A stretch of DNA of 29,027 nt from positions 1 through 29,027 of the IMG/VR virus record IMGVR_UViG_3300028025_003591; one strand, 5' to 3'. The stretch is from a virus. Positions within the stretch are counted from its first letter, which is position 1, and each line of letters begins with the position of its first letter. Below, one piece after another: positions 1,506 to 29,027 of the stretch. A program made the position numbers and the translations under genes. The notes beneath the pieces are model-generated. The model ran no database searches and was not told the DNA's origin. It saw only the letters and a program-made list of their open reading frames with translations.

Positions 1506-2251
1506 TAGAAGTTAGATGTCCAACTCTCATTATCAACTGTTGCAGTAGTTACATCACCTTCTGCCGTATAAATTCTATTTGGGTTACTAAAGTTTTCGTT
1601 CTGACCAACATTAGCATTAACAGTATCGATAATACTTTGACCAGAAATTGGTCCAAATAAATTCATTTTCATTTGAAAGCTAAGAGTATGAGTAACAAAC
1701 CTACGAGTTTGGAAATCTCCATCATAATCATCTTGAACCGATACACTATTTAACACGATAGGAACATCAAGTTTAACATTCATATCTGGAACTGCATTAA
1801 GAGTCAATGTATACTCAGGTGTAAAAGTAGGAAGAATTTGTTCTATAATTTGTAGACCATCTTCTTGAGTTTTTGTTAGAATGTATAATGATAAATCAAT
1901 ATTGTATGGAACAGGAGTATACATAGTAGATACTGAACCAGTACCATCACCACATTTTATCTGTTGCATGCGATTTACTTTACGAGATGGATCATAGTTA
2001 TAACCAATAATTTCAAAAGACATTCTTGGTAGAGTTGTATAAACATGATTTTCCAAAGTTGGATCTTGTTCCAAACGAACAATCCACTTTTCCTTTGGTG
2101 CATAAGCCAGTGGAATCTGTAATCTTTGAATTACCGTACCAGTTACAGAATCACCTTCACGACGATCGATATAGATGTCGCTGAATAGTGAACCAAATCC
2201 TACAATGCACTTGCGGATTATTCCGTGGTAGTATACATTACTGTTTAACAT
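1505..2251 (-). CDS. 15: Tail sheath stabiliser and completion protein gp15
   Basis: This 248-residue protein fits T4 gp15, which caps the tail tube and sheath and forms the head-tail joining surface. The evidence is overall sequence character (N-terminal NVYYHGIIRKCIVGFGSLFSDI, then a beta-rich body with VPYNIDLSLYILTKT and FVTHTLSFQMKMNLFGP), its size close to T4 gp15, and its position between gp14 and gp17. Its ATG overlaps the gp14 stop as TAATG, and its own stop overlaps the terminase start in the same way. This suggests coupled translation of three virion genes. Residues 1-200 look family-like; the last 40 or so are N/T-rich and probably flexible. It is a cytoplasmic assembly component that ends in the virion. 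Confidence 0.9.
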   Translation of the reverse strand: MLNSNVYYHGIIRKCIVGFGSLFSDIYIDRREGDSVTGTVIQRLQIPLAYAPKEKWIVRLEQDPTLENHVYTTLPRMSFEIIGYNYDPSRKVNRMQQIKCGDGTGSVSTMYTPVPYNIDLSLYILTKTQEDGLQIIEQILPTFTPEYTLTLNAVPDMNVKLDVPIVLNSVSVQDDYDGDFQTRRFVTHTLSFQMKMNLFGPISGQSIIDTVNANVGQNENFSNPNRIYTAEGDVTTATVDNESWTSNF

Positions 2252-3180
2252 TATGGGTTATTATCTCTGTCAATTTCACCGAATGGATTTGATACGCTAA
2301 ACAATACATCCTGTGCTTGTGTTTTAAACTTATTGTTATCACCGAAGGATTCTGGCTTATCAATATTAATATCAATAGAAGCAGTTGCTACCGCACCAGA
2401 TCCGCCACCGCCAGTTATAGAAACTACTGGAGCAGTTTGATATCCACTACCTGGATTTGTTACATCAATGCGAATAATTTTATTTGCAGTAGCACCTGTT
2501 CCACGAACAGCAGTTGCTGTAGCACCAAAACCAGTTGCGCTTGTGAATGATACTGTTGGAACTGAAGTATATCCTGTTCCTTGAGTTGTCATTGTAATCT
2601 TAGTAACTTCACCGAGTGGAGATCTAGTTGTATTAGTGGTAAATGTTTTGAGAGTTTCAAAGGCATCAATTGGTGCAATGCCAGTATCAATTCTTTCAGA
2701 AGCATACTGGAACAATTCAACTTGTAGTTTGTAAACATATAGTTTACCAAGCTGATAAAATGGATCTTGATGGGCAACAAATTTAATTTCAAACAAACCT
2801 TTAGTTAATGGAAAGTAAATTAAATCACCTTCGCATGGTCTATTTGGTAGAATGGTTTGACCATAGCGACCAACCATCTGTTCCCAGCGACGACGAGCAA
2901 CTACCAATGTAGCTGACTGTTCCATCATAAGACCAAACTTCTGAATGAACGCACCTTGTCCACCAAGAGAATCTACATTCTCAAAATACATTTCAATTGG
3001 AAATGAAGAGGTAAATTTTGATAGACGATCTTCACCAAGAATCTCGTCTTTTGAAACTAATGTTCTTGGAATGTACATGAACTCATTACCATAAATCTTA
3101 AGAGATTCGATAATTAGATCTTCAACTAGGTACTGCTCATTTCTAGTACCATGAGAAAAATAAACATTAGTTGTTGACAT
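2251..3180 (-). CDS. 14: Neck protein gp14
   Basis: The 309-residue protein matches T4-type neck protein gp14, which with gp13 closes the filled head and connects it to the tail. Family-like segments are the N-terminal NVYFSHGTRNEQYLVEDL, the EFMYIPRTLV region, FENVDSLGGQGAFIQKFGL (residues 67-84) and the C-terminal DVLFSVSNPFGEID. Residues about 189-268 are an apparent insertion of two G/A/T-rich modules (GTGYTSVPTVSFTS and GSGYQTAPVVSITGG, each followed by a GxGAxATA-like stretch). T4 gp14 is shorter and lacks them. It lies one base after gp13 and overlaps gp15. A ribosome site AGGA stands five bases before the ATG. Confidence 0.92.
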   Translation of the reverse strand: MSTTNVYFSHGTRNEQYLVEDLIIESLKIYGNEFMYIPRTLVSKDEILGEDRLSKFTSSFPIEMYFENVDSLGGQGAFIQKFGLMMEQSATLVVARRRWEQMVGRYGQTILPNRPCEGDLIYFPLTKGLFEIKFVAHQDPFYQLGKLYVYKLQVELFQYASERIDTGIAPIDAFETLKTFTTNTTRSPLGEVTKITMTTQGTGYTSVPTVSFTSATGFGATATAVRGTGATANKIIRIDVTNPGSGYQTAPVVSITGGGGSGAVATASIDINIDKPESFGDNNKFKTQAQDVLFSVSNPFGEIDRDNNP

Positions 3181-13999: not shown

Positions 14000-16126
14000 T
14001 TACAAATCAGTTCTTGTAAAGTTTGCCTGACCCCAACCATGTTGTGATGGGTTGTTTGAGCCATCCCATCCGTAGTACCAAGCCATAGGACCAGTAGAAA
14101 GAACGAATCTATTATTAGTGGTAATGAAACAGAAACCAGATTCTGAAGATTCACCCACAGCACCAATCATATAAGCAGGTTCATGGAATCTTGGTTGCAT
14201 TGGATGATATGCTCCTCTTTGGAAATGTTCCCATGGTAATCTGTTACCACCACGATTATGTTGAGCAGTAGGATCAACACCTCCGTTATTACCAACACCA
14301 CGAGAATAGGGAGTTCCATTCGTTCCGTTTGACCATGTTCTTCCGTCTGAGTTTTGGAAAATAACTTTTAAGTTTGCAGTTTGCTTAGATGTATGAATAT
14401 ACTTAATATCAGTCATATTACCCATATGAATAGGAACTGGAGTCTGAGTGTTTGGGTTATTGTAGGCATTATCAGAAACACACTCATCATAGTTTAGATG
14501 TTTTCTATATGTTGGAATAGAACCTTGTCCGTTATCACCAATTAGAAACATAGCACCAGTACCCTTTTCTTTGATAACTATACCATGGGTCATGTTACTT
14601 CGATTGATTAGCCAGAACTCTTCACAGTTTCTCATGACATCATTAAGATTACCTATCTCAGACATTTTATTACCAATGCCTTTAGAATTTCTACGGTAAT
14701 TAAATAATTGAGCAGCTGGAGTAAAGACGCCAATATATGTTTGGTTTGTATTGCCCATACCATAAATAGACGCACCACTTGCACCGTAGTAACCAACATA
14801 GTGCAAAGTTCCGTCGTTGGTTAAAACAACTCCATTACCATAGGATCCTTGTCCTTGGAACATAACTTTCTTAATACCACCAAATCTTGCCCAGTTATAT
14901 TTAATTCTTTCTGGACGATAAAGATTACCATAGTTACCTTGTCCTAGTTGCCCGTAACCATTATAACCCCAAGAATATAAATCACCATCTTGAGTTAATG
15001 CGTATGAAGATTGGTAATCATATCCAGACATCCACATATCTACAATAGCTTTACCATGAAAATAATTTTGTGGTATTACTGTTGGTGTTGAGTAGTTAGA
15101 TGTATTACCGTGTCCTAATTGTCCGTAGCCATTATATCCCCATGTCCACACACGACCTGTATTATCTAATGCATAGCAAGAGTGAGTATCAGTATCTTCT
15201 GAATATACACCCTTTGCAGAGTGACCAGCTTTAATAACAAATACATCTCTTAGTACACCAGTTCCTCTAGCACCAGATCTTCCAACTCTTCGGAAATATT
15301 GTCTGTTAGTAGTAGTTCCATCACCATTTTGTCCATGCCCAGCGTAACCACATTTATATAATTCGCCATTATCAAATAAAGCAAATGTAAAGGCATCTGT
15401 TCCTGTGAGTTGGATTAATTTTGGAGCACCACCAGTAATTGATGGTCTATATCCATCGATATAATCATAGAAATCAAAACCAGCATTTTTAGTGAAATTA
15501 AATGTACCACTGGCATTCACATTATTAGAAGCCAACCAAGTAGTTCTTTCACCTAGTCCGTGTCCAATATCACCATAATCACGACCCAAGAAAGATAACT
15601 CATAGTTACCATTAATTGTCATGACATTAATATATCCTGTCTGGTTAGCCATATTATTATCTTCGCACATATTGCGAGTCCAACCCATTGGAGGATATAG
15701 CGCAAATTGTAGTTGATTTTTCGATCTATCCAGTCTAGAACATTCTGCAATTTTAGTCCACTTAGTTGTAACTGCACCATTCTCATAAATTGGATGTCCA
15801 CCAAAATTATCAGTAACACACTGGAAAAAGTCACCATTGTAACGAACAATGTCGCCAACATAATGTTGATCTTTAAATGCCCAGTCACCTTTATAGACAG
15901 AACCACTTATTACTAGAGTCCAGTTAGTCGTATCAATTCCTGGTTTTACTTCATGACCAAATAGATTGTTTTCTACATGGTAGTTGCTATTCATCACATA
16001 GGCTTTACCATTAATACGAACTGTATCATTTATTTTATAAATGGTTCCTTCATCCCAGCTTCCCATCCAATTTTGTTTTAATTGGGTGTAATCTAAGTCA
16101 CCCGCTAAAGATCTTGATAGTGGCAT
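14000..16126 (-). CDS. RCC1-repeat tail adhesin with CBM5/12-like N-terminal modules
   Basis: This 708-residue protein begins with two modules of the carbohydrate-binding CBM5/12 type (W...Y..GD.V...G..Y): MGSWDEGTIYKINDTVRING at about 20-40 and KGDWAFKDQHYVGDIVRYNG at about 78-97. A propeller-like region follows with RCC1 repeats, including VWTWGYNGYGQLGHGN and LYSWGYNGYGQLGQGN and weaker copies such as LYKCGYAGHGQNGDG. The C-terminal 150 residues are N/G/W/H-rich and end FTRTDL. RCC1 repeats form seven-bladed propellers in eukaryotic proteins; here a surface-binding tail protein is the natural reading. It is paralogous to the genes at 17240 and 19386. AAAAAGG precedes the ATG. The sugar or receptor is unknown. 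Confidence 0.78.
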   Translation of the reverse strand: MPLSRSLAGDLDYTQLKQNWMGSWDEGTIYKINDTVRINGKAYVMNSNYHVENNLFGHEVKPGIDTTNWTLVISGSVYKGDWAFKDQHYVGDIVRYNGDFFQCVTDNFGGHPIYENGAVTTKWTKIAECSRLDRSKNQLQFALYPPMGWTRNMCEDNNMANQTGYINVMTINGNYELSFLGRDYGDIGHGLGERTTWLASNNVNASGTFNFTKNAGFDFYDYIDGYRPSITGGAPKLIQLTGTDAFTFALFDNGELYKCGYAGHGQNGDGTTTNRQYFRRVGRSGARGTGVLRDVFVIKAGHSAKGVYSEDTDTHSCYALDNTGRVWTWGYNGYGQLGHGNTSNYSTPTVIPQNYFHGKAIVDMWMSGYDYQSSYALTQDGDLYSWGYNGYGQLGQGNYGNLYRPERIKYNWARFGGIKKVMFQGQGSYGNGVVLTNDGTLHYVGYYGASGASIYGMGNTNQTYIGVFTPAAQLFNYRRNSKGIGNKMSEIGNLNDVMRNCEEFWLINRSNMTHGIVIKEKGTGAMFLIGDNGQGSIPTYRKHLNYDECVSDNAYNNPNTQTPVPIHMGNMTDIKYIHTSKQTANLKVIFQNSDGRTWSNGTNGTPYSRGVGNNGGVDPTAQHNRGGNRLPWEHFQRGAYHPMQPRFHEPAYMIGAVGESSESGFCFITTNNRFVLSTGPMAWYYGWDGSNNPSQHGWGQANFTRTDL

Positions 16127-17239: not shown

Positions 17240-19366
17240 TTAATCTGTTTGTGGTAGAAGCAGATCCAAAGTTATAATTACAGCATTACCGCATCCCCAT
17301 AGTTGTAAACTTGTATCTAAGAAGAATGATAAGTGGCATCCACCTGTTGTTGCCCAAATATTTTTAATGCCACCAGCAATAGACCATCCAGCAGTAGAAG
17401 AAGTTCTTCTTAGTGTACCTGTTGAATTACTATCACTAGTAGTGTTATTAGTTCCTAGTTGCCCAACATCATTATATCCTTGTGTCCATACATGACCTTG
17501 TCCATCAAGAACCATGAGCCACTCTTGATTTTCTGCAGATGGAGTCATAACCTTTTGGATTCCACCATATGTTGCCCAGTTGATAGCAAGTTTATATGGT
17601 GCAGCACATTGAGAAGCAGAAACAAATCCTGTATTTGTTGCAAAACCTAATTGTCCGTAGTTATTTCTACCCCAACCCCATAATTGTCCAGATTCATCTA
17701 GTGCGTGAATAGAGTTTTCTTGAGTAAACACATCAACAATTCTATTATTCTCGAAGAAAATTGCTTTAGGTAAACACATTGGTGTGCGAACATTATCTGT
17801 TTGATTGGCTATTCTGAAACCTGTAGAAAGATGGTTTTCTGGACCAATACCGCATTGTCCGTAACCATTGTAACCCCATGTCCACAACTCACCAAATTCA
17901 TCTAGTGCAGCGTACCAAACGCTGGAGTTTCTAGAATTTGAAGTACCACCTGCTAGTTTAACAATTGAACGATTACCAAATCTTGATTTGTCCAGTTGAA
18001 TATATGCAGACGAATAATCTGCATCTTCACCAGTACCAAGAGAAGAACCAGAAGAAGTACCACCAACAATAACAGTACCATTAGATGTTAGCGAAGCATT
18101 AGTTGTCCACTGCGCATTGTTTTGCATTAGTCGTGGTGCTTGACTCTTTCTAAAGTTTTCAGCAAAAGATTTATTACCAAAGTGCGGGTTTGCATCTGTA
18201 TAGTAATCATTAAAATACTGAGCAGCTTCTTCACCAGCACTTAGACGGTAACTATCTATCTGTCCTGGACCACCCAAACCATAGTAGATATGTCCCTTAC
18301 CAATTCTGTGTCCACGACCATCAGCACCAACAGAAAGAGATCCACGATACTTCATCTGCGCTGGCATATGTGGTGTATTCCATGCCCATGCCCATGCAGC
18401 CAATGAGTTCGTTGCTGGGTCTTTATGAGATGCAGGAATGTTCCAAGGAATACCAGAATATGTACAAGCTACTGTACCAGTACCTGTACCTGTGGCAGTT
18501 GCTACGAATTCAGTTCCAACAGTATTATATGCTGCACCGAAACTAGTAAAGGTGCTTGTACCAACAGTTACAATAGTGTAAGTAGTACCTGCAATCATTG
18601 CAGTCGCACCTATTGTAGTTGCGTTTGAGAAGGTTGGTTTCTTAACATACGGATGTCCTGCCCAATTAAATGGATTTTTATTGACACCGCATACGATTCT
18701 TTCGTGAGGTAAAGCATCGTGACCAATAAGGAATGGTTCCCAGACACCAACATAATCAAAAAGTGGATCCACATTAGTATGACCATTAGTACAGAAATAA
18801 GAATTACCATTTCTTACAACTATCTGACCATCTGTATAATTAGCAGTTCTTGACCACTCACCAGAATATGTCATACCTTCACTTAACAAATCCCAATCGG
18901 TTTTGTTTAGAGCGACTTCATAGGTATTGGCCATTCTTCTTGGACCAATAGCAACCACTCCACTAATAGATCCAGTAGTAAGAGTATTTCGTTTGCTAAC
19001 TTGAATAGTTGATTGTGTTGTTGATATATTAGTGATAGAAATAATTCTACAATCTGGTTCTAAGAAACTAGCATATGCAAATAAATCAGCATTTGCAACG
19101 ATTCTAGAATCTGCAATATTTGGTAAAGTAGTATCCCATGTTACAGTGAAAGTATCAGTACCAAATGTCATTCCACTAATGTTTCCTGTCATTGGGAATC
19201 CACTTAATGGACCAAATAATAAAGATGTATAAGATTTGGAAGTTTCATTCTTATAGATGTAAGATTGTCCGTTATACTGAACAACATCACCTTGTGTATA
19301 TGTAGCAGTAGAACTCCAGGCTCCTCTGTTTACAAATTTAATCTTACCTAATGTTAATGTAGTCAT
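17240..19366 (-). CDS. RCC1-repeat tail adhesin, N-terminal 708 residues of a split gene
   Basis: It is paralogous to the proteins at 14000 and 19386. CBM5/12-like modules appear at about 14-43 (RGAWSSTATYTQGDVVQYNG) and 168-195 (GEWSRTANYTDGQIVVRNGN). Residues 247-303 are an inserted module (MIAGTTYTIVTVGTSTFTSF ... GTEFVATATGTGTGTV) of a type I recall from other marine phage proteins. RCC1 repeats follow: LWTWGYNGYGQCGIG, LWGWGRNNYGQLGF, VWTQGYNDVGQLG. The last residues (AVIITLDLLLPQTD) do not look like RCC1, because the true continuation lies in the -1 frame and runs to 16794. AAGGGA precedes the ATG. As written the product would lack its final blades. It is probably a receptor- or sugar-binding tail protein. 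Confidence 0.76.
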   Translation of the reverse strand: MTTLTLGKIKFVNRGAWSSTATYTQGDVVQYNGQSYIYKNETSKSYTSLLFGPLSGFPMTGNISGMTFGTDTFTVTWDTTLPNIADSRIVANADLFAYASFLEPDCRIISITNISTTQSTIQVSKRNTLTTGSISGVVAIGPRRMANTYEVALNKTDWDLLSEGMTYSGEWSRTANYTDGQIVVRNGNSYFCTNGHTNVDPLFDYVGVWEPFLIGHDALPHERIVCGVNKNPFNWAGHPYVKKPTFSNATTIGATAMIAGTTYTIVTVGTSTFTSFGAAYNTVGTEFVATATGTGTGTVACTYSGIPWNIPASHKDPATNSLAAWAWAWNTPHMPAQMKYRGSLSVGADGRGHRIGKGHIYYGLGGPGQIDSYRLSAGEEAAQYFNDYYTDANPHFGNKSFAENFRKSQAPRLMQNNAQWTTNASLTSNGTVIVGGTSSGSSLGTGEDADYSSAYIQLDKSRFGNRSIVKLAGGTSNSRNSSVWYAALDEFGELWTWGYNGYGQCGIGPENHLSTGFRIANQTDNVRTPMCLPKAIFFENNRIVDVFTQENSIHALDESGQLWGWGRNNYGQLGFATNTGFVSASQCAAPYKLAINWATYGGIQKVMTPSAENQEWLMVLDGQGHVWTQGYNDVGQLGTNNTTSDSNSTGTLRRTSSTAGWSIAGGIKNIWATTGGCHLSFFLDTSLQLWGCGNAVIITLDLLLPQTD
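17243..17285 (-). other. Frameshift interval in the RCC1 gene
   Basis: The upstream frame stops at 17242-17240 and the -1 frame has its last stop at 17288-17286, so the shift must lie between. The region is free of long homopolymers; the longest run is three bases. Joining gives 858 codons including the stop. Confidence 0.75.
18458..18628 (-). other. Inserted 57-residue beta module inside the RCC1 adhesin
   Basis: It encodes a T/G/V-rich unit of the form AGTTYTIVTVG...FT..GA..NTVGT.F.AT..GTGTGTV. The two sister RCC1 proteins lack it, and it interrupts otherwise comparable sequence after the second CBM-like module. It looks like a portable domain. Confidence 0.6.
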
Positions 19367-19385: not shown

Positions 19386-21503
19386 TTATTGGTTCTTTAG
19401 TTTAGTCATGACATTCCAATAAGAACCTCTATAGTGCGTTCCACTAATAGTATAGTCATTTGAGTATCCAGTATTATAGCATCGACCTGTAGTTAAATCT
19501 ACATAGAAACCGAACTTATTACTTGAGTGGCCAGTTGGGTAGTATTTCCAGTAAGAACGATATGTACTAATCTGAGCATGTGGATACAATAGATTATTCT
19601 TTAGTCGATAGTTTGCAGAAATATTATCTGGATCTCTGTCTTGTCTCTCATTGTATGTATCTGTATTTCCAGCAGCCCAAGCACCACCATTGTTTGAATA
19701 CCCGCAGAAATACCAATCACCATCACTTCTCTTAACTGACATATTAGTATACGAAGAAGCACCACAATTTGATGCCATATCAACCACATTGGTTAAAGCA
19801 GTTCCACTTCTAAATTGAGTAGCTTGTAAAGTTGAGTAGTTTGTAGTAGATGCTTGTGCCACGGATAGTTGATAGTAACCATTATACCCACAAGTATATG
19901 CAGTATTGGATGAATCTGATGATCCTCTTGTGACCATCATAGATCCGTATTGACCACCGTAGTGCCAAGCATTCCACACATCTGTTAACTTTGTTCCACT
20001 CGGAGAAGTATTTTGTGGGGCTGCTGTCGTCACCGCAGCTGTAACACCATTATACCCTCCAGTATAAACTTCTAGAGGTAGACACACATTATAAGTGTGG
20101 TTATGTGCAAGTTGTCCATAACCATTATAACCCCAAGTCCAAAGAGTATTATCTCTTCTAATAACTAACAGTGATACAGTAGAACCAGATGAATTTCCAC
20201 CACTAGTATTAAATTTCTTAATACCAGTTGTAGAAGTTGTACCCCATGTTTTAACAAATGTTGGTGAAGAACGATTTGTAGTATCACCAACACCTAATTG
20301 TCCGTTACCATTGTATCCTATTGCATACATCTTTCCTTGATCAGTCAAGAACCAGAAAGATCCATAGTTACCACCAGTTGCCCAGATCTCAATAATTTTA
20401 CCATTGGTTGTTTGGTCAAAAGAAACTAGAGTTGGTGCATAATAATCTGTTTGATTACCTTGTCCCAGTTGTCCGTAGCCATTATAACCCCACGCATATA
20501 ATTCACGAGTATCATCTGAGTTACGAATTAAAGCGTAGCAAGATCTTGTGGAAATATTACCGTCAGAAGAAGAAGCAATACGAATCGCTTTCTTAGTGCG
20601 AAGAATTGTTGTTGGACTACTTTTATTAATACCAGCATATCCGCACTGTGTAAAATTAGTATAAGATGTAGTTTGGCCATGTCCACAAGCACCTTGAGCA
20701 TTATATCCTGCAGAGTGTACTTCGCCATTGTCAAATAGTACTAGAGTACCATCAAATCCGCCATCGCTTTCAATTTGAATAAGTTTTGGTGCTGCTGTGG
20801 TTGGAGAAGTTGGAAGAGAACCATCAAACCAACTCAAATGAGAGAACTGTGCTTCTCCTGGAGTTTGTTGTGTTCCTGACGCTACACCAGTACCTAAATT
20901 GTTGCTAGAGTTTCTTCCATAAGACATTAAACCGTATCTTCTATTAACATACTGTACTGCACCATTACCTGCTAGATTAGATCCAGGAGTTTTAAACTCA
21001 CCGAAACTATCGCCCATACCAACATAACTAGTTCCAGGTACTGCAAGCGCATAAGCATCCCAAACAGTTTTATGTGTTGGTGAATAACCTTCGTTTGGAC
21101 CGAACAAATAAGCAAATTTATCTCTCATAGTCCCAGTGGAAATCTTTTTCCAATATGCAGTTTGAGTTGCTGGATTCTGATTTGTACCTGTTTGAATACA
21201 GATATATGAATCTTGTTCTAGATAATTGTGGTGATCATTATAAGGTAGTATTCTTTTATAAGTTATAATATCACCCACAGCATAAGCAGTAGCATTTGAC
21301 CACTCACCAGCTTGATACACACCACCACCCATTAAATCCCAATTCGCAGTGTTTAATTCTGGAGTGGTTGAAGATGAATTGGCTACTTCGCACACATAGT
21401 ATTTGTTTTTGTAAAGAACGATGTCATCTACCAAGTATGATGTGGCTGCAACCCAAGAACCTCTTGGATTAAATCTTAGTTTACTCAATGTTGATATTGT
21501 CAT
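19386..21503 (-). CDS. RCC1-repeat tail adhesin with two CBM5/12-like modules
   Basis: This 705-residue protein has the clearest architecture of the three sisters. CBM5/12-like modules lie at 14-60 (RGSWVAATSYLVDDIVLYKN, KYYVCEV) and 65-121 (AGEWSNATAYAVGDIITYKR). RCC1 repeats include LYAWGYNGYGQLGQGN, MYAIGYNGNGQLGVGD, LWTWGYNGYGQLAH and YTCGYNGYYQLSVA. The C-terminal part (about 600-705) is Y/N/S-rich with a partial last blade (CYNTGYSNDYTIS). There is no catalytic signature. A ribosome site AGG, with a closer ATAGGA, precedes the ATG. The gene directly follows two small fibre genes and probably encodes a host-surface-binding tail protein. An alternative is a structural spike without sugar binding. 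Confidence 0.79.
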   Translation of the reverse strand: MTISTLSKLRFNPRGSWVAATSYLVDDIVLYKNKYYVCEVANSSSTTPELNTANWDLMGGGVYQAGEWSNATAYAVGDIITYKRILPYNDHHNYLEQDSYICIQTGTNQNPATQTAYWKKISTGTMRDKFAYLFGPNEGYSPTHKTVWDAYALAVPGTSYVGMGDSFGEFKTPGSNLAGNGAVQYVNRRYGLMSYGRNSSNNLGTGVASGTQQTPGEAQFSHLSWFDGSLPTSPTTAAPKLIQIESDGGFDGTLVLFDNGEVHSAGYNAQGACGHGQTTSYTNFTQCGYAGINKSSPTTILRTKKAIRIASSSDGNISTRSCYALIRNSDDTRELYAWGYNGYGQLGQGNQTDYYAPTLVSFDQTTNGKIIEIWATGGNYGSFWFLTDQGKMYAIGYNGNGQLGVGDTTNRSSPTFVKTWGTTSTTGIKKFNTSGGNSSGSTVSLLVIRRDNTLWTWGYNGYGQLAHNHTYNVCLPLEVYTGGYNGVTAAVTTAAPQNTSPSGTKLTDVWNAWHYGGQYGSMMVTRGSSDSSNTAYTCGYNGYYQLSVAQASTTNYSTLQATQFRSGTALTNVVDMASNCGASSYTNMSVKRSDGDWYFCGYSNNGGAWAAGNTDTYNERQDRDPDNISANYRLKNNLLYPHAQISTYRSYWKYYPTGHSSNKFGFYVDLTTGRCYNTGYSNDYTISGTHYRGSYWNVMTKLKNQ

Positions 21504-21513
21504 TTCCTATACC

Positions 21514-21843
21514 TTAATATGTAGCAGTTAACTGGCCAGAAGAGTTAATGGCTAGTGTTAATTTATTAGAGAAGAACGCAGTCAGCGCATTTTCAATATT
21601 AGATACAGATGTGCTTGCTTCAGTCCCTAATATTTGATTGTGTATAAGATTACCACTACTGTCTACTGAAAGAACATTGTATCCAGAAACTGAAACTGGA
21701 ACCCAAGCAGTTCCATCCCAAATTTCTACACTGGACAGATCTGTGTTGTATCTGGTCATCCCCTGTACAGGACTTGCTGGACGCTGAGCAGTAGTACCAA
21801 CACCTATGGTAACATACTGGTCGCCTAAGACTGTTGCTGGCAT
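21514..21843 (-). CDS. Small tail-fibre protein
   Basis: This 109-residue protein contains the phage fibre signature TTAQRPASPVQGMTRYNTDL, SSVEIWDGTAWVPVS (residues 17-51), a unit also embedded in the 863-residue fibre as GQRPVTPATGMIRYNSTLSS. The rest is a short beta-rich tail (SNIENALTAFFSNKLTLAIN). Its ATG overlaps the stop of the preceding S74 fibre gene as TAATG, with AAAGGAG upstream, so the pair is translationally coupled. It may be an accessory fibre piece or an adaptor for the preceding fibre. Confidence 0.72.
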   Translation of the reverse strand: MPATVLGDQYVTIGVGTTAQRPASPVQGMTRYNTDLSSVEIWDGTAWVPVSVSGYNVLSVDSSGNLIHNQILGTEASTSVSNIENALTAFFSNKLTLAINSSGQLTATY

Positions 21844-22736
21844 TATTTAACTCCTTTTAATTCTTGTATCTCTTTATTTAGCTCTTTTATCGCTTCTATT
21901 AAAAGAGGGACTAGTTTTTCGTACTGCACTGTTTTGTAATTTTCGCCTGAACGAGAAATCTCTGAACTTTCAAATAACATGATATCAAATGGTGCAGGTT
22001 TAACAACTTCAGGGAGAACTTTTTCTACTTCACCAGCTAAAACACCGACTTGGCTTTCTTTACTAGTATAGCCAAAAGATTCTGCTAACTGGTTTGCTGT
22101 GTAAGTAACACCTCGCAAAGAACATACTTTTTCTAATGCATTTTCAATAACTTGAATATTTTCTTTTAATCGTTCGTCTGAGTAATTAGAGCTAATATTA
22201 CCTGCTGCACGAATCTCACCATCAGTTGTCGGTGGTGTTAAAGATCCACCAACACCTAAACTTTTAAGAGAAGTTACTGCATTTGGTGCGTTTAAAAGCG
22301 GAGAAGGAATTGTACAACCAGTACCACCTACAGAGTTTGATCCTATACTAACACTGGTAGCTGCACTTCCAATATTTAACTCAGTAGCATTAGTATTAAT
22401 TAGATTGAAAGTAGTGGCAGTGGTAGTAATATCGCCACCATTAACTGCCAAGTCTGCAGTTATCGTGGTATTACCAGTTACGGCTAGTGTACTAGAAAGA
22501 GTGGTTGCACCAGAAGCTGCAAGAGTTCCCGTAATGCCGATAGAACCAGAAAGAAACCCTCCAGAACCATCTCTACGAACTACAGCATTAGCAGTATTTG
22601 AGCTAACGGCATCGGTAGTTTCTACTTTAAAGCTGTTCAGGTTTAAGAAATTGGTATCAATTTCTGAGTTTGACAATGGAAGATTCTTGACAGTTGCTCC
22701 ACTGCCAGCAGTACTTCTAGTTGTTATTGAAGCCAT
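21843..22736 (-). CDS. Short tail fibre with C-terminal S74 intramolecular chaperone
   Basis: A fibre protein of 297 residues. The N-terminus (TVKNLPLSNSEIDTNFLNLN) and the middle repeats (TGTLAASGATTLSSTLAVTG, TTATTFNLINTNATELNIG) form a short shaft. The C-terminal 113 residues are a peptidase S74 chaperone: YSDERLKENI gives Ser186 and Lys191 at the standard spacing, then GVLAGEVEKVLPEVVKPAPF and a final coiled coil (EAIKELNKEIQELKG). This domain is homologous to that of the fibre at 4140. A self-cleaved chaperone of about 112 residues is expected. AGGA lies 11 bases before the ATG. It is the first structural gene after the enzyme cassette. Confidence 0.87.
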   Translation of the reverse strand: MASITTRSTAGSGATVKNLPLSNSEIDTNFLNLNSFKVETTDAVSSNTANAVVRRDGSGGFLSGSIGITGTLAASGATTLSSTLAVTGNTTITADLAVNGGDITTTATTFNLINTNATELNIGSAATSVSIGSNSVGGTGCTIPSPLLNAPNAVTSLKSLGVGGSLTPPTTDGEIRAAGNISSNYSDERLKENIQVIENALEKVCSLRGVTYTANQLAESFGYTSKESQVGVLAGEVEKVLPEVVKPAPFDIMLFESSEISRSGENYKTVQYEKLVPLLIEAIKELNKEIQELKGVK

Positions 22737-22802: not shown

Positions 22803-23498
22803 TTATGCACTTTCCATATAAGAACCATCGTAATTATTTATAGAAGACTCCAAAATGTTTCGGATATTTGGGTTTCTGGAGTCTACATAAAACCTAACCA
22901 TAATCATGGGAGAATCTCCATAATTAAACGCATTATGATAGTGATAGCTATTAAAACAATATCCTCTCCCCACAGGGTAGTATTCCTCATAAACTGGGAT
23001 CGGTTTATTAAAATCTGAACATCTATAATCCATATAGTGTAGCACACTAAATTTTGAATTCTCGGGCATCTGAATAGGTAACTGCCAAACAGAAATCCAT
23101 TCTGGTTGTTTAGATTCTAATACATGACTATGCCATCCTGCAGAACCATTTGGATTTATTCTTTCTATTCTAGCCAGTAAATTACCAGCACCTAAAGATA
23201 GTAGAAGTTCTCGGAGATAAGGACATTTCTTTATAGCATCAGTCTCTTTAAACTCTCCAGTCCATGCTTCTTTGGGATCAGATTTAGACTCTCCGTTAAT
23301 GCTATACAAAGCGATAGAATCCCAAGAAGATTCTATGTAACATCCAGCTTTGATATCTTCCCAACTATTATATGGATAAAACTGTAAACCTTGTATCTCT
23401 GATAAAATCTTAGATGCATCAAACTCAATAGGTAAAGGAAGATGTGCAATTTGACTTAGTCTATTCAATGTAATCTCCAGTATAAGAATTGACTGCAT
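22803..23498 (-). CDS. Double-stranded beta-helix (Asp/Asn hydroxylase-like) protein, copy 2
   Basis: The 231-residue protein resembles aspartyl/asparaginyl beta-hydroxylase-like oxygenases. ARIERINPNGSAGWHSH (to residue 125) matches the PG..i.wH.x entry strand. WQLPIQMPENSKFSVLHY gives the central strands, and FNSYHYHNAFNYGDSPMIMV (182-201) supplies a distal His, the N-x-G turn and Arg202, the likely cosubstrate-binding residue. The metal motif reads HxH where classical members have HxD. It is a clear paralogue of the upstream 237-residue protein. The ATG at 23498 overlaps that gene by 38 bases. A TTG at 23468 has a better ribosome site and fits the paralogue alignment. Substrate unknown. 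Confidence 0.72.
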   Translation of the reverse strand: MQSILILEITLNRLSQIAHLPLPIEFDASKILSEIQGLQFYPYNSWEDIKAGCYIESSWDSIALYSINGESKSDPKEAWTGEFKETDAIKKCPYLRELLLSLGAGNLLARIERINPNGSAGWHSHVLESKQPEWISVWQLPIQMPENSKFSVLHYMDYRCSDFNKPIPVYEEYYPVGRGYCFNSYHYHNAFNYGDSPMIMVRFYVDSRNPNIRNILESSINNYDGSYMESA

Positions 23499-24174
23499 CC
23501 TGAACTAAATCATACACTAAGTCATCTCTAAGATCTGCAAAGAAACGAATTGTTAGCCTTACACCTTCTTCATCAAAATTAAATACATTATGATAGTGGA
23601 ATGCATTAAACACAACTGGAGTTGACGGTATATAACTAGCTTCGTATACCTTTGGAAGTTCCTTGCCAAAATCAACCATTCTATATTGTTTGTTTGAGAT
23701 TACAGAGTATTTAAACTTATCTGGCATCGTGATTGGTAACTGTATAATCATCATAGTTTCTGGATGATATAATTCAAATGCATGATTATGCCAACCCATT
23801 ACAGTTCCAGGATGAATCTCCTCAATCCTCGCTAGTGCTTTACCACCACCCAACTGTTCAACAATGTCGTAGGTATATGGTAGATATTCAGACAAACCAG
23901 TTTTCTGAAACTGCCCCCAAATTCTTTCTAATTCTCCTGGACCAGCACCTTCTAGTCTATCGCAAAATATTTCTCCATTATAACTGAACAATGATAGATT
24001 ATTCCACTTACTTTTACTGTGCCCATGATTCTCTTGCATAGTAGCTGAGTATGGCATTAGCGGAAATGGACACTCACGAATCTCGTGCTCAATCCTTTCT
24101 GCATCGTATTTAAAATTTAACGGCAGATGAGGAATTCTATTTACTTGATCAACTAATTGTTCTATGTTTCTCAT
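23461..24174 (-). CDS. Double-stranded beta-helix (Asp/Asn hydroxylase-like) protein, copy 1
   Basis: This 237-residue paralogue of the next gene has the same layout: ARIEEIHPGTVMGWHNH (His129 and His131), MIIQLPITMPDKFKYSV, then VVFNAFHYHNVFNFDEEGVR with His193 or His195 as distal metal ligand and Arg206 or Arg210 as possible 2-oxoglutarate contact. This order (PG..x.H, hydrophobic strand, N-x-H..N...R) fits the Asp/Asn beta-hydroxylase group of 2-oxoglutarate/Fe(II) oxygenases. HxH replaces HxD, so iron binding by histidines alone or a lost activity are possible. It overlaps the B12-type radical SAM gene by 26 bases, pointing to one operon. The substrate is unknown; protein side chains are the family norm. 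Confidence 0.74.
   Translation of the reverse strand: MRNIEQLVDQVNRIPHLPLNFKYDAERIEHEIRECPFPLMPYSATMQENHGHSKSKWNNLSLFSYNGEIFCDRLEGAGPGELERIWGQFQKTGLSEYLPYTYDIVEQLGGGKALARIEEIHPGTVMGWHNHAFELYHPETMMIIQLPITMPDKFKYSVISNKQYRMVDFGKELPKVYEASYIPSTPVVFNAFHYHNVFNFDEEGVRLTIRFFADLRDDLVYDLVQDAVNSYTGDYIE
23466..23478 (-). promoter_or_regulatory. Ribosome site suggesting a TTG start at 23468
   Basis: GGAG (23478-23475) stands six bases before TTG (23468-23466). The resulting start, MNRLSQIAHLPL, aligns with VNRIPHLPL near the N-terminus of the paralogue and would shorten the overlap with the upstream gene to eight bases. The ATG at 23498 has only an AGG directly against it. Confidence 0.5.
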
Positions 24175-26053
24175 TAATAAAATTTTCGTAAAAGGTTCTT
24201 ATCTGATAAAATTTATCATATTTTGGAGCAGTGGAAAATTTTAAAGAATTAACTCTTTCAGTCCATTGCTCATATATTGACTCTGGTACATCTAAATTTA
24301 ATTGCTCTGCTAATTCTACTAAGAATTTTAAATAATCTTCCTGAAACACTACAGCACAAGATTGGAAAATGTAACTTAAATTTGCAGACACATTTGTGTG
24401 CGGTAAATTATATTCTCTAAAATCTACAATCTCTTTTCTATTACCTGAAACCAATTCTTGCATCTGATCGCTAAGGTTTCTCATAGCCAAAAGATATTTA
24501 TTATCAGTATCGGACATAACCTTTTGGTATAGATGTCTAAACAGAATAGATGGTCTACTAATTTTACCAGATGCAATATTGGCATCGATAACAATCTTGG
24601 TGAAATCAAATAATGGTCTATTGTAGACGATCCAATAATTCACAAAGAAAAACTCAGTATACTCTTCTTCAGTGTATCCGTTGGCTTTAGTCACAAACTC
24701 CACATCTGAGATATAGACAGGATCATCGGATATATGATATTTAGAGAACTCATCTACATCGTTAAATTCATAGCTATTTAATCTAGACTTACCAACACAA
24801 ACCCTTGCAGTTTTAATACCATGTTCTTTTTTATACTCTGGATCAAAGGCAGGAGAGTCTGGTAGCAGTAACCAAATATATCGTTCAAGTTGATATCCAT
24901 GTTCGTACTGAAGATCTATCTCATCGTAAAAATCTTCCTTCGTGTATCCTGGAAGTCCAAGAATGAATTCAATATCTGAACGAACATCATATGTCTTTTC
25001 CAAGTATCTGGCAAACTCAAAATCTTTTTCTCTTGGTACATCAGTTCTTTTAATGTTTCGTAAAACTTTTTGACTAATAGACTGTAAACTAATTTTGTAA
25101 CGATTAACTGCGCCACATCTTGCCAATGGTTCAATAACAGCCCATCTTGCTTCTTGTTTAGATTTCGTTATACCAAATAGTTCAACTTGAGTTGGCAACC
25201 CATATATGTTCTTAGACTGCTCGATATAATTTGAAACATCAACATCTTCTTTAAAGATTCCATAGTTTGCATCAACAATCTGAACACCTTCAATACCAAA
25301 CTGCGGAATATAATCTAGATCTTGTTTAATCATATCCAGTGGTTTACGAATAACCTTTCCACCGATACCACCACCCCACTCGCAAAATACGCATGCGTAG
25401 GGACAACCTCTAGATAATTCTATTGGAAGAACAAGTGGAACATTAGCTTCCATTGCCAAATCTTTACACTTGTAAATGATATCTTCATTTCCTGGAATCA
25501 TTGCCTGAGGAAATTCAAATGTAACTTTATTTGGAGTTGGTCCACGACCAGTTCTAAAAATAGAAAAACTTACTTGTTTCCAATCAATATCACCTTCAGC
25601 ATATTGATTTAACATATCTTCAATAAACCATTCGCCATAACTAGTAGGTTCACAGATAGCATCTACAAACTTATGACTAAAGAACCAGTCTAGTTTATTG
25701 TGAGTTATACCTAAGTGTGGTCCACCAATTACAATAATTCTTTTTGGGTTCCTATTTTTAATCTCTTTCGCAATAGCCATAATTGCCATATGGCTCCATA
25801 CATAACTAGAAAACAAATAGATGTCAGAATCTTGTTTATCGTAATAGTTTACGATATCATCAAAACTCATTCCCTCAACATCTAACACTGGTTCTTGCCA
25901 AATTACATTTGACGAATACTTACCATTTTTAGTATAATAGTTCTTGAAGTTTAACCAATGGATCGGTAACCTAATAACAGGTGATCTTAGTTCAACTGTT
26001 AAGTATGAGATTTTTATGGATTTTCTGGGTGGCTTCAACATAATCTGTTTCAC
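24149..26053 (-). CDS. B12-binding-type radical SAM protein
   Basis: This 634-residue protein has an N-terminal Rossmann-like region (FSSYVWSHMAIMAIAKEIKN at 81-100, then IIVIGGPHLGITHN at 106-119) typical of B12-binding radical SAM enzymes, but without the DxHxxG cobalamin signature. The radical SAM motif is SRGCPYACVFCEWGG, with Cys217, Cys221 and Cys224 as cluster ligands. A TIM-barrel-like region follows (VELFGITKSKQEARWAVIEP, FILGLPGYTKEDF). The last 220 residues are unassigned and mainly helical. The listed start is GTG; an in-frame ATG at 26041 is also plausible. It overlaps the SPASM gene by 62 bases. Reactions of this group include methylations and C-C bond chemistry; which applies is unknown. 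Confidence 0.85.
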   Translation of the reverse strand: MKQIMLKPPRKSIKISYLTVELRSPVIRLPIHWLNFKNYYTKNGKYSSNVIWQEPVLDVEGMSFDDIVNYYDKQDSDIYLFSSYVWSHMAIMAIAKEIKNRNPKRIIVIGGPHLGITHNKLDWFFSHKFVDAICEPTSYGEWFIEDMLNQYAEGDIDWKQVSFSIFRTGRGPTPNKVTFEFPQAMIPGNEDIIYKCKDLAMEANVPLVLPIELSRGCPYACVFCEWGGGIGGKVIRKPLDMIKQDLDYIPQFGIEGVQIVDANYGIFKEDVDVSNYIEQSKNIYGLPTQVELFGITKSKQEARWAVIEPLARCGAVNRYKISLQSISQKVLRNIKRTDVPREKDFEFARYLEKTYDVRSDIEFILGLPGYTKEDFYDEIDLQYEHGYQLERYIWLLLPDSPAFDPEYKKEHGIKTARVCVGKSRLNSYEFNDVDEFSKYHISDDPVYISDVEFVTKANGYTEEEYTEFFFVNYWIVYNRPLFDFTKIVIDANIASGKISRPSILFRHLYQKVMSDTDNKYLLAMRNLSDQMQELVSGNRKEIVDFREYNLPHTNVSANLSYIFQSCAVVFQEDYLKFLVELAEQLNLDVPESIYEQWTERVNSLKFSTAPKYDKFYQIRTFYENFINEKHRTIS

Positions 26054-27044
26054 TGTTTATTTTAATAATTCTTGGAGCCAACTGTTTCATATGAACACAG
26101 TGTTCTTCAACCATATCATGGTGTTTTAAATCTTTAATTGTTTTCTTACACCCATTACAAATTGCAAACATTGGGCAACCAATACACTCATCCTTTAACG
26201 AATACAATTCTGGAGCATCTTGTAGTGGTGTAATAAACCCACCTTCTTTAACTTCCTTTACAAAGTTAATTGGGTATTCTTTATCGTCACCCATCGCCCC
26301 ACAAGAATAATAATCTCCCTCTGGATTCAATGCTCTTATGTGATCATCACAATTTCTTGCCTGAGGGCAAACATTGGCAATATTATTCAGACGAGTCATC
26401 ATCTGTTTTGTATTAAACTCCCAATGCCAAAGATCTTTCTCGTATACATCAATATACATCTCGTATATCTTACTTAGGCGATAAGGTTTATCCTGCTCAC
26501 CAGAAGCCATGGCATAGTTCAGCTTACACTGAACATCCATTTTCTTGGCTAACTCTACATGTTTTATTGCATGCTTCTCATTTTCCTCAGAGATAACTGC
26601 AATAAATCCTGGACGGTAACCAACTTCTTTTAAGAATAGATCGCTAACATTCCAAAAATCTTTTTCAGTATAGACTCGGTTCTCGTTAATTTTACGACCA
26701 AATCCATATTGAAAACTTGTTGTTACTCCGACTCTTGGGTGTTTGAACAAAGGTGTCCACATCTCTGGTTTCTTGTAGAATGCCCAAAGATTAGTGGTCA
26801 ATCCTAAAGTTGTTATAAGTTTGTGTTCTTCGATATAATCAAGAATCTCAAAATAATACTCTGGCTTTACCATTAATGGATCACCACCATTAACAATAAT
26901 CGTATTTGTGTTTGGAAATCTTTTTAAAAAATCGAATACATGCTGTAAATCAAGTGTGCTGGCTTTGTCTTCTACAAGTTTAGTGGATGAACAAAAGGTA
27001 CACTTAAAATTACATAGTTCCGTTGGTTTGATTATCAGTTCCAT
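25992..27044 (-). CDS. Radical SAM/SPASM-domain protein
   Basis: The 350-residue protein starts with MELIIKPTELCNFKCTFCSS, giving the radical SAM ligands Cys11, Cys15 and Cys18. VNGGDPLM (51-58) is the SAM-binding GGEP-type loop. The C-terminus carries a SPASM arrangement: C232-x10-G-x4-C248, then CIGCPMFAICNGC (287-299) and Cys316, enough for auxiliary Fe-S clusters. SPASM enzymes such as anaerobic sulfatase maturases and RiPP maturases modify peptide or protein side chains, and some act on sugars. CNGC has two residues between cysteines where three are usual. It overlaps the 335-residue gene by 35 bases. The substrate is not identified; no short Cys- or Ser-rich precursor peptide stands out. 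Confidence 0.88.
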   Translation of the reverse strand: MELIIKPTELCNFKCTFCSSTKLVEDKASTLDLQHVFDFLKRFPNTNTIIVNGGDPLMVKPEYYFEILDYIEEHKLITTLGLTTNLWAFYKKPEMWTPLFKHPRVGVTTSFQYGFGRKINENRVYTEKDFWNVSDLFLKEVGYRPGFIAVISEENEKHAIKHVELAKKMDVQCKLNYAMASGEQDKPYRLSKIYEMYIDVYEKDLWHWEFNTKQMMTRLNNIANVCPQARNCDDHIRALNPEGDYYSCGAMGDDKEYPINFVKEVKEGGFITPLQDAPELYSLKDECIGCPMFAICNGCKKTIKDLKHHDMVEEHCVHMKQLAPRIIKINSETDYVEATQKIHKNLILNS

Positions 27045-28017
27045 GCGTCACTTTATATTTACTAAGCCATTCTGTATTATCTTTGTTCTGTAGAATTGCG
27101 TTCCAAAAGATTGGATTTACAGAATCAAAGTTGGAAAGATTTGGGAATACCAATTGGTGTTGTGAAGCAAAGACTGGATCTAAAATGTAATCTTCAACCA
27201 ATTCTCTTTTAGTCAATCCTTTAATAGAATTAACGATGTCGCCATATTCTTGTGTATTATTCACTACGCTAAAGAAGTGATTACCATAATCATATCCATA
27301 AACTTCTTTGATAGTATTATGGATACCATCGACTGGCATCAATTCATTAATGTCAAATTTGGTTAGATAAGAATTAATATAGTCTGCATTTGTTAAGTTT
27401 GCGATAGTATATTCATCATTAGTCATAATTGCTGGAAGGGTTTGTTCAGCAAATTTTAACCAAAACCCTGGAGATCCATCGTACATCTCGTCAACACGAT
27501 CTATACAAAAATCTAGTGAGTGCGTGTCACCTTGAATTGCATTGGCATATTCTATTTCTACTCTAACATATTCTAGAGAAGCAGCAAACTCTGAAGTCTC
27601 TGTTGTTAAGTTTAGTTGTTCTGGTAATTCAATACGAGTAACTTCTCTTAATCCAGTAACTTGTAGTCCATAGTTATAACTTCCAAGACCATAGTTTTCT
27701 TTTAACCTATCATAAGAATACATTTCGTTAAGAGCAGTTTCGTTTAGTACAGCACCAAAGAAAAAAGAATATACATACTGAAATGTTTCATCATCACAAT
27801 ATATGATAGTTTTTACATTTGAGAAGTCTTCATGAATATCTGCAAATAATTGATCTAGTATAACAGGTGTTACAGTCTTATAAATTTTGTAGATATCAAA
27901 ACAATTGTTTATTTGAGGATCATCAATATTTTTATGATCACCAAGCCATACATGTTTAGCAGTTTCTACAATATTATTTGTAGTTGAGAGATAGCAGTTG
28001 TCGAATAGAAATATCAT
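27010..28017 (-). CDS. Unknown protein with LFxxCY N-terminus (335 residues)
   Basis: I do not recognise a named family. It opens MIFLFDNCYLSTTNN, and the next protein upstream opens MLHLFNSCYVYP; both later have IYxDxxxF (here residues 72-79, IYCDDETF) and an NxF-like spot near residue 40. The two are therefore probably distant paralogues. The rest is acidic, mixed alpha/beta, without membrane segments or metal motifs. The start ATG overlaps the upstream stop as ATGA. It lies directly before the SPASM gene with a 35-base overlap, so it could be a partner or substrate of the enzymes. That role is inference from position only. Confidence 0.78.
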   Translation of the reverse strand: MIFLFDNCYLSTTNNIVETAKHVWLGDHKNIDDPQINNCFDIYKIYKTVTPVILDQLFADIHEDFSNVKTIIYCDDETFQYVYSFFFGAVLNETALNEMYSYDRLKENYGLGSYNYGLQVTGLREVTRIELPEQLNLTTETSEFAASLEYVRVEIEYANAIQGDTHSLDFCIDRVDEMYDGSPGFWLKFAEQTLPAIMTNDEYTIANLTNADYINSYLTKFDINELMPVDGIHNTIKEVYGYDYGNHFFSVVNNTQEYGDIVNSIKGLTKRELVEDYILDPVFASQHQLVFPNLSNFDSVNPIFWNAILQNKDNTEWLSKYKVTHGTDNQTNGTM

Positions 28018-28895
28018 ACTAAGATACCCATTTGTTGAATTTCATGCTTTGGCATTTTTAATAACCATCGTAATAACCAAATGTCAATCTTATCGCCCAT
28101 ATTTTTGTTTGCCGATAACAACAGTAAAAACAGTGGATCTTTTATCATCTCTGAAATGTTATTAATGCTGTAGTATTTTAAAATAGTAGGATCTGTGAAT
28201 GTATTAAATTCTTTTCGCATTTCCATATACAAATCTTTCATAGAAACTACTGTGTCAAATGAAGCATTTCTATAATCACTAACCCAAGAATTATTCGGTT
28301 CTTTTCTTGATAAGTATTTGGCTTTCGCTTCTGGGTAGAAAGAATACACATATCGATTAACAATATTATTAATAGTGCTATAATCTCCAGAAGCCACTTT
28401 CCATTCAACACCTGCGTTTTGTTTAACCCAAGTTTCTGATAGTTTAAATGGATCATCTTCAGGAATGTCTTCTAATGACATAAACATATCAGAAAGAACT
28501 TTTATATTAGCTCTGCTTGTTTCGGATTGTATTAACTTTGCTCGTGTATTTAAACGAAGAGCAAACAGTTTGGCAGCATCTAAGAAAAACTCTTTACTTA
28601 AATTTGTAACTTGAGTTTTTAATTTAGCAGTAAAGAATTTTACAAAACTATCGTTATCAGCGTATATCACAAACGCTTGTTTATTACTTAAAACTAATTC
28701 TAGTATTCCGCTAGAAGCAAAATGTTCAAAGCAAGAAAATCTTTGGAATGCATCCTTTGCGCTAGAATTATTGTAATAAAAACTATTAGTTACTACAGGA
28801 GTATTGGTGTGGTCTTTTCCTACCACCAAATATTGTTTTGTTGGATCAAATAATTCTACAGGATAAACATAACAAGAATTAAATAAGTGTAGCAT
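28014..28895 (-). CDS. Unknown protein with LFxxCY N-terminus (293 residues)
   Basis: A paralogue-like companion of the 335-residue protein: MLHLFNSCYVYP at the start, NSFYYNN near residue 37 and IYADNDSF at 77-84. The C-terminal two thirds are helical and K/E/N-rich (AAKLFALRLNTRAKLIQSET, ISEMIKDPLFLLLLSANKNM, WLLRWLLKMPKHEIQQMG). No catalytic motif, signal peptide or clear transmembrane helix is visible. Its ATG overlaps the upstream partial gene by 17 bases and its stop overlaps the next gene by four, so all belong to one transcript. Function unknown. Confidence 0.77.
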   Translation of the reverse strand: MLHLFNSCYVYPVELFDPTKQYLVVGKDHTNTPVVTNSFYYNNSSAKDAFQRFSCFEHFASSGILELVLSNKQAFVIYADNDSFVKFFTAKLKTQVTNLSKEFFLDAAKLFALRLNTRAKLIQSETSRANIKVLSDMFMSLEDIPEDDPFKLSETWVKQNAGVEWKVASGDYSTINNIVNRYVYSFYPEAKAKYLSRKEPNNSWVSDYRNASFDTVVSMKDLYMEMRKEFNTFTDPTILKYYSINNISEMIKDPLFLLLLSANKNMGDKIDIWLLRWLLKMPKHEIQQMGILV

Positions 28896-29027
28896 CGGCT
28901 TCTTTGATCATTGAATTTAATTGTTGTGGGGTAAATTTAGCGTCTAAAATAATTTTTAAAATTGGGAAAAACAAACATGTTTTAGAAGACAGATAATAGG
29001 TTAATGTTTTACCAGAATATATTGGTC
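28879..29027 (-). CDS. C-terminal end of an unknown gene cut by the window edge
   Basis: This is an open frame running in from the right edge, with 48 residues visible (SGKTLTYYLSSKTCLFFPIL, then ILDAKFTPQQLNSMIKEADA) ending in TAA at 28881-28879. It overlaps the next gene by 17 bases, the same dense packing as the rest of the cassette, which supports it as real coding sequence. The product cannot be named. Confidence 0.6.
   Translation of the reverse strand, partial: PIYSGKTLTYYLSSKTCLFFPILKIILDAKFTPQQLNSMIKEADATLI

Follow-up and report, generated by a model that had tools for sequence, protein, structure and literature searches.

The stretch analysed here, referred to as the window, is a 29-kb viral contig of the T4-like type. 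Its low end carries genes for a head closure (Hc2) protein, a tail sheath stabiliser and the large subunit of the terminase, and fibre genes follow; a gp14-like gene is located at 2251-3180. The seven overlapping frames at 22803-29027 that were originally listed as one cassette are all present on the minus strand. From the window edge inwards they encode the C-terminus of fam4, a conserved partner protein that measures about 250 aa when complete and is here cut by the edge (28879..29027); two LFxxCY proteins of 293 aa (fam19, 28014..28895) and 335 aa (fam17, 27010..28017); a SPASM-type radical SAM enzyme of 350 aa (group 0A, 25992..27044), which served as the anchor gene of our cassette survey; a B12-binding radical SAM enzyme of 634 aa (fam8, 24149..26053), a probable C-methyltransferase; and two hydroxylase-like proteins (fam12), namely a candidate Fe(II)/2-oxoglutarate oxygenase of 237 aa (23461..24174) and its paralogue of 231 aa (22803..23498). 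Directly downstream, the cassette ends at a minus-strand gene (21843..22736) for a tail fibre with a Peptidase_S74 intramolecular chaperone (PF13884, E 2.3e-14), which also matches a tail fibre PHROG.

According to the coordinates, the successive frames overlap by 38, 26, 62, 35, 4 and 17 bases from the low end upwards, and these overlaps of 4 to 62 bases support the single operon proposed for them. Terminator-like and promoter-like sites inside the cassette were no more frequent than expected by chance, and scans of the window for T4 late promoters and terminators also gave chance levels. Two exact T4 late-promoter octamers (TATAAATA), a chance-level count, were found on the minus strand, one at 22842-22835, shortly upstream of the S74 fibre gene, and one at 13980-13973, shortly upstream of the gene for a 111-aa protein. 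In addition, three paralogous proteins of about 705 aa in the tail-fibre region (14000-16126, 17240-19366 and 19386-21503) match RCC1-type profiles and are likely receptor-binding proteins; the first, which was the one scanned against Pfam, carries a carbohydrate-binding module as well.

Only the second part of the cassette lies in the window, and the upstream remainder was seen on a longer contig (L006) of a near-identical phage, whose SPASM enzyme is 98% identical to that of the window. Going upstream on this contig, a full copy of fam4 (L006:7405-8166, plus strand) is followed by the gene of a 173-aa protein, fam5 (L006:6884-7405), two places upstream of the window edge, and then by another radical SAM gene; a tail fibre gene precedes these. 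As described below, fam5 is our substrate candidate.

Pfam model PF04055 confirms the presence of two radical SAM enzymes, one of SPASM and one of B12 type. The SPASM enzyme matches PF04055 above cut-off and phrog_1802 at E 1e-54, while its match to the SPASM model TIGR04085 is below cut-off (E 1.1e-4); its CxxxCxxC core and C-terminal Cys residues are conserved in 67 relatives, the cysteine pattern expected of SPASM maturases. When the six window proteins were compared with annotated phages by tblastn, the SPASM enzyme alone gave matches, to jumbo-phage proteins with 48-59% identity. The B12 enzyme was placed in the superfamily by PF04055 together with a partial match to the B12-binding model PF02310 (E 2.2e-5), and its best NCBIfam model is the KedN5 B12 radical-SAM methyltransferase, with E 3e-36 and a score of 124.7 bits that does not pass the cut-off of 700. 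C-terminal Cys clusters of the SPASM/twitch type, which are typical of peptide-modifying radical SAM enzymes, occur in all four main radical SAM groups of the cassettes. In two loci (L093 and L094) a B12 radical SAM gene stands alone beside tail-fibre genes, without a CHxS protein, and the opposite strand has other radical SAM-like genes.

The two hydroxylase-like proteins are 36% identical and have their conserved residues in common, the invariant ones being HxH (129/131), D168, HYH (193/195) and R210. In an hhalign comparison with the 2OG-FeII_Oxy_5 family, HxH, H and R fall on counterpart positions, although the match is weak (E 0.005). The label "beta-helix oxygenase-like" in the original prediction is plausible, but searches against PDB sequence profiles, PHROGs, Pfam and NCBIfam gave no family match.

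By hhalign, the LFxxCY proteins are homologous to one another (E 8.6e-7) and are distant members of a widespread partner family, fam10 (E 6.6e-18 for fam19 and 1.2e-11 for fam17). The consensus of this larger family begins M.HLFNKVY...D, and the Cys is not conserved. Searches of Pfam, NCBIfam and PHROGs with the two proteins themselves returned nothing. An AF2 model of a fam10 member is confidently folded, and Foldseek found no match for it in the PDB at E<=0.001. Membership of fam4 in this family was ruled out by hhalign, and the same method established no tie between the family and fam39, a partner protein of some other cassettes.

In the clade of the window, fam5 ends in CHSNCHGSCHGSI, from which RGRR is absent. 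Its relatives in other phages end in CHxSCHxSCHxSRGRR, which is almost invariant although the rest of the protein has diverged; the CHx(S/N) unit occurs three times in the tail, and most relatives have RGRR after it. Among 73 aligned relatives, the residues C, H, C, H, C, H of the tail are conserved at 99-100% and the Arg residues of RGRR at 90-100% of the sequences having those columns, and the mean majority residue reaches 0.86 in the tail versus 0.44 elsewhere. No other Cys is present in 123 of the 168 distinct tailed fam5 sequences. According to the AF2 model (pLDDT 82), the protein has a folded domain of about 150 residues, to which a flexible C-terminal tail, modelled with low confidence, is attached. 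Foldseek found no relative of this model in the PDB; since no solved structure matches the substrate domain, a role at the fibre is argued from the neighbourhood only. Likewise, no NCBIfam model matched fam5. Comparison with annotated phages by tblastn gave no matches because only the tail is conserved, and a DNA pattern of the tail was used to find fam5 in place of the protein search. The fam5 matches in the viral library include the fam5 protein of Agrobacterium phage Atu_ph07. Natural variants of the motif (L018:5301-5954, CHSSCHSSHSSRNRR; L070:4748-5437, CHYSCFTSSCHFSRGRR) show tolerant positions. Myoviridae sp. ctijX18 has three larger proteins of 504-660 aa with a substrate-like fold (BFVD A0A8S5USJ7, A0A8S5USJ8 and A0A8S5USV2).

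The tail protein and the enzymes are linked in both directions. Among 80 loci found through the SPASM enzyme, 61 contain fam5, and in each of the remaining 19 the contig breaks off next to the cassette. In the other direction, the DNA pattern of the tail by itself identified 120 loci, of which 115 contain cassette radical SAM enzymes, the other five being short or cut, and 105 contain fam4. These counts include related contigs, the distinct tailed fam5 sequences numbering the 168 given above. A ribosomal precursor with a conserved core is therefore encoded beside modifying enzymes, as is the case in RiPP systems.

The common gene order is cupin, radical SAM 0B, fam5, fam4, fam10, radical SAM 0D, an optional B12 radical SAM gene, optional oxygenases, the SPASM enzyme 0A, radical SAM 0C, fam6 and an oxygenase. 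In the window clade the order is 0B, fam5, fam4, two LFxxCY proteins, 0A, the B12 enzyme and one or two fam12 genes, a reduced form without the cupin, 0C, 0D, fam6 and the usual oxygenases. The joint loss of these enzymes and of RGRR suggests that they act on the RGRR end, as far as a single clade can indicate. A third form of the cassette (L036, L063, L104, L108, L113 and similar loci) is marked by short fam5 genes in tandem, by more than one fam9 radical SAM gene and by a different partner, fam39. Independent scattering of the genes in related genomes was looked for and not seen, and the core stays together across very different phages. The precise composition seen in the window, with both LFxxCY proteins, the B12 enzyme and two hydroxylases, is limited to one clade; in other phages, other oxygenases and further radical SAM enzymes occupy the cassette position.

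Jumbo phages of Burkholderia, Agrobacterium, Sinorhizobium and Pseudomonas carry the cassette too, and there its genes have been annotated one by one. For example, the Burkholderia jumbo phages FLC6 (gp70-gp82) and S13 carry a cassette composed of a cupin (gp70), radical SAM enzymes (gp71, gp76, gp79 and gp81) and 2OG oxygenases (gp80 and gp82), in which gp72 takes the place of the CHxS-tail gene; however, the existing annotation proceeds gene by gene, gp72 is listed as a hypothetical protein, and no system was recognised. The proposed association with fibres holds, as the window cassette ends at the S74 fibre and other phage cassettes adjoin tail-fibre genes. An S74 fibre was found in only 29 of 220 tail-bearing phage loci, many of which are short stretches. 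In pelagimyophages, radical SAM cassettes are reported to lie in a hypervariable host-recognition cluster next to gp14 and to differ between close relatives (PMC7029224), a variation that fits a role in host contact, and 12 radical SAM genes are reported from one marine genome of the T4-like type (PMC5332604). These cassettes resemble that of the window in phage group and in position beside gp14 and tail fibres; from this likeness, rather than from direct comparison of the genomes, they are very probably of the same kind. However, the radical SAM genes are named there in passing, and the passages found in the two papers give no substrate, partner genes or function.

Outside phages, a scan of bacterial contigs identified the tail in nine assemblies that were examined further, most of them labelled Bdellovibrionota, and the SPASM enzyme is present in all nine. 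Three of the 18 genome pattern matches (L102, L105 and L106) were rejected as chance matches. No match to Terminase_6N and, except for one weak match, no phage sheath was found in the nine assemblies. The tail-bearing bacterial contigs are up to 382 kb long, and a gene of ordinary metabolism, for acyl-CoA dehydrogenase, is one that was seen in the vicinity. In five Bdellovibrionota genomes with enough flanking sequence, proteins with a prepilin-like N-terminus and a C-terminal Peptidase_S74 domain are encoded beside or around the CHxS cassette (L257:10658-11692, L261:7959-9143, L263:9544-10497, L266:7547-11212 and L267:9628-10917), and PF07963, the prepilin-type N-terminal segment, was matched in several predator S74 proteins. 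Eight of the 14 S74 domains of these five genomes lie at the cassette; under random placement this corresponds to P 2e-8, a value that is descriptive only since the association was noticed after looking. In a sixth genome (G005), an S74 gene and a fragment of the SPASM enzyme are on one contig.

The exact tail pattern occurs in five of 192 sampled genomes of the phylum, so that the system is patchy. In the tree of the SPASM enzyme the Bdellovibrionota rows are not united, four changes being needed, which suggests exchange with phages. S74-chaperoned MAT fibres are used by predatory Bdellovibrio in prey recognition, and the paper describing them does not mention radical SAM (PMC10769870). The fibre genes next to the cassette, both at 21843-22736 of the window and in the Bdellovibrionota loci, resemble MAT fibres in encoding an S74 chaperone. 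However, the cassette-side S74 proteins of the predators have prepilin-type N-termini instead of the MAT domain order, and the MAT arrangement, in which a conserved beta-rich domain comes after a signal peptide, was not found in them; they can be regarded as pilin-fibre chimeras unlike the published MAT fibres.

Two known kinds of system share features with the cassette. In proteusin or polytheonamide-type pathways, a radical SAM epimerase, B12 radical SAM methyltransferases and a 2OG hydroxylase act on one ribosomal product. These RiPP pathways resemble the cassette in their mix of enzyme classes, but here there is no proteusin precursor, no exporter or protease was seen among the partly annotated neighbours, and the core, made up of CHxS repeats and 12-16 residues long, is attached to a folded domain. 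In HxsABCD, the His-Xaa-Ser repeat protein HxsA occurs with the radical SAM maturases HxsB and HxsC. The likeness consists of a His-x-Ser-containing repeat at the end of a ribosomal protein and two or more radical SAM enzymes. In contrast, the unit here is Cys-His-x-Ser with an RGRR end, the SPASM enzyme of the window fails the HxsC model (31.5 versus a cut-off of 267.9 bits), fam5 has no NCBIfam match and so does not fit the HxsA model, and oxygenases and a B12 enzyme are added at phage fibre loci. HxsABCD is mentioned in PMC9062424. The expectation that this set of genes had not been described as a system agrees with the library of papers searched, where no account of such a system turned up.

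Taken together, the enzyme classes and the linkage between tail and enzymes support the originally suggested multi-step modification of a protein or peptide, and point to the tail as the modified part; the occurrence of fibre genes beside the cassette in two unrelated settings argues for a role at the fibre. We infer the order and chemistry of the steps from the enzyme classes. The most economical explanation is a RiPP-like system, encoded in host- or prey-contact loci, that rebuilds the CHxS tail borne by a folded protein. Accordingly for the window, we consider it likely that its genes form the second part of such a RiPP-like system, located in the host-recognition region of a T4-like marine phage, and that the CHxS tail modified by it belongs to a host-contact protein associated with the fibres. 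In this scheme, fam4 and the proteins of the LFxxCY/fam10 family would hold the fam5 substrate, the SPASM radical SAM enzymes would cross-link or otherwise rebuild its tail, the B12 radical SAM enzyme would methylate it and the oxygenases would hydroxylate it. The modified fam5 would then join the tail-fibre apparatus and contact the host surface, adhesion being its presumed role.

Alternatively, the tail protein might be modified to yield a released peptide that would be a true RiPP, for example a bacteriocin, a signal or a metallophore; the CHxS tail would be cut off and either exported or freed at lysis. In favour of this, a longer precursor ends in a short conserved core, and several tailoring enzymes are present. 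However, the precursor here is a folded domain of about 150 aa instead of a short leader, and its core hardly differs between marine phages and jumbo phages from soil. In addition, the cassette has fibre genes as neighbours, and no cassette-wide protease or exporter family appeared in the survey of gene order (where neighbours were partly annotated), so we regard release as improbable. It is equally unlikely that the tail binds metal or Fe-S as a cluster carrier serving the radical SAM enzymes, the real target being a tail fibre or a host molecule. Many radical SAM systems work without a carrier of the tail type, the strict RGRR end would be left unexplained, and the folded domain of fam5 itself varies while the tail does not. 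What such a carrier would account for is that a Cys/His-rich tail always accompanies Fe-S enzymes, and T4-like marine phages with many radical SAM genes are reported to encode Fe-S carriers too (PMC5332604). Finally, the original guess that the LFxxCY proteins are the substrates is probably wrong and deserves hardly any weight: in the window clade their genes are found immediately upstream of that of the SPASM enzyme, but their family has no Cys in its consensus, and its size, diversity and confident fold are rather those of a partner protein, whereas a far better candidate with a much stronger substrate motif linked to those enzymes, the CHxS-tail protein, lies just outside the window.

If the modification of the CHxS tail is accepted, its cassette in unrelated jumbo phages and predatory bacteria may represent a shared route to a modified host-gripping part. 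A bolder and more tentative reading, which we hold as possible but short of probable, is that phages and predatory bacteria share an adhesion device that has moved repeatedly between them: a small protein would be mounted on trimeric fibres, and several enzymes of the radical SAM, B12 and oxygenase kinds would turn its CHxS tail into a tip of non-standard chemistry by which the target cell is gripped. Radical SAM genes are often listed in marine and jumbo phages, and a conserved substrate candidate makes their purpose testable in cultured phages. If the interpretation is true, the radical SAM systems that modify proteins would gain a new member, whose target sequence is very simple and near-universal; phage host recognition would make use of heavily modified protein tips that are invisible from sequence alone, and predatory bacteria would use the same kit.
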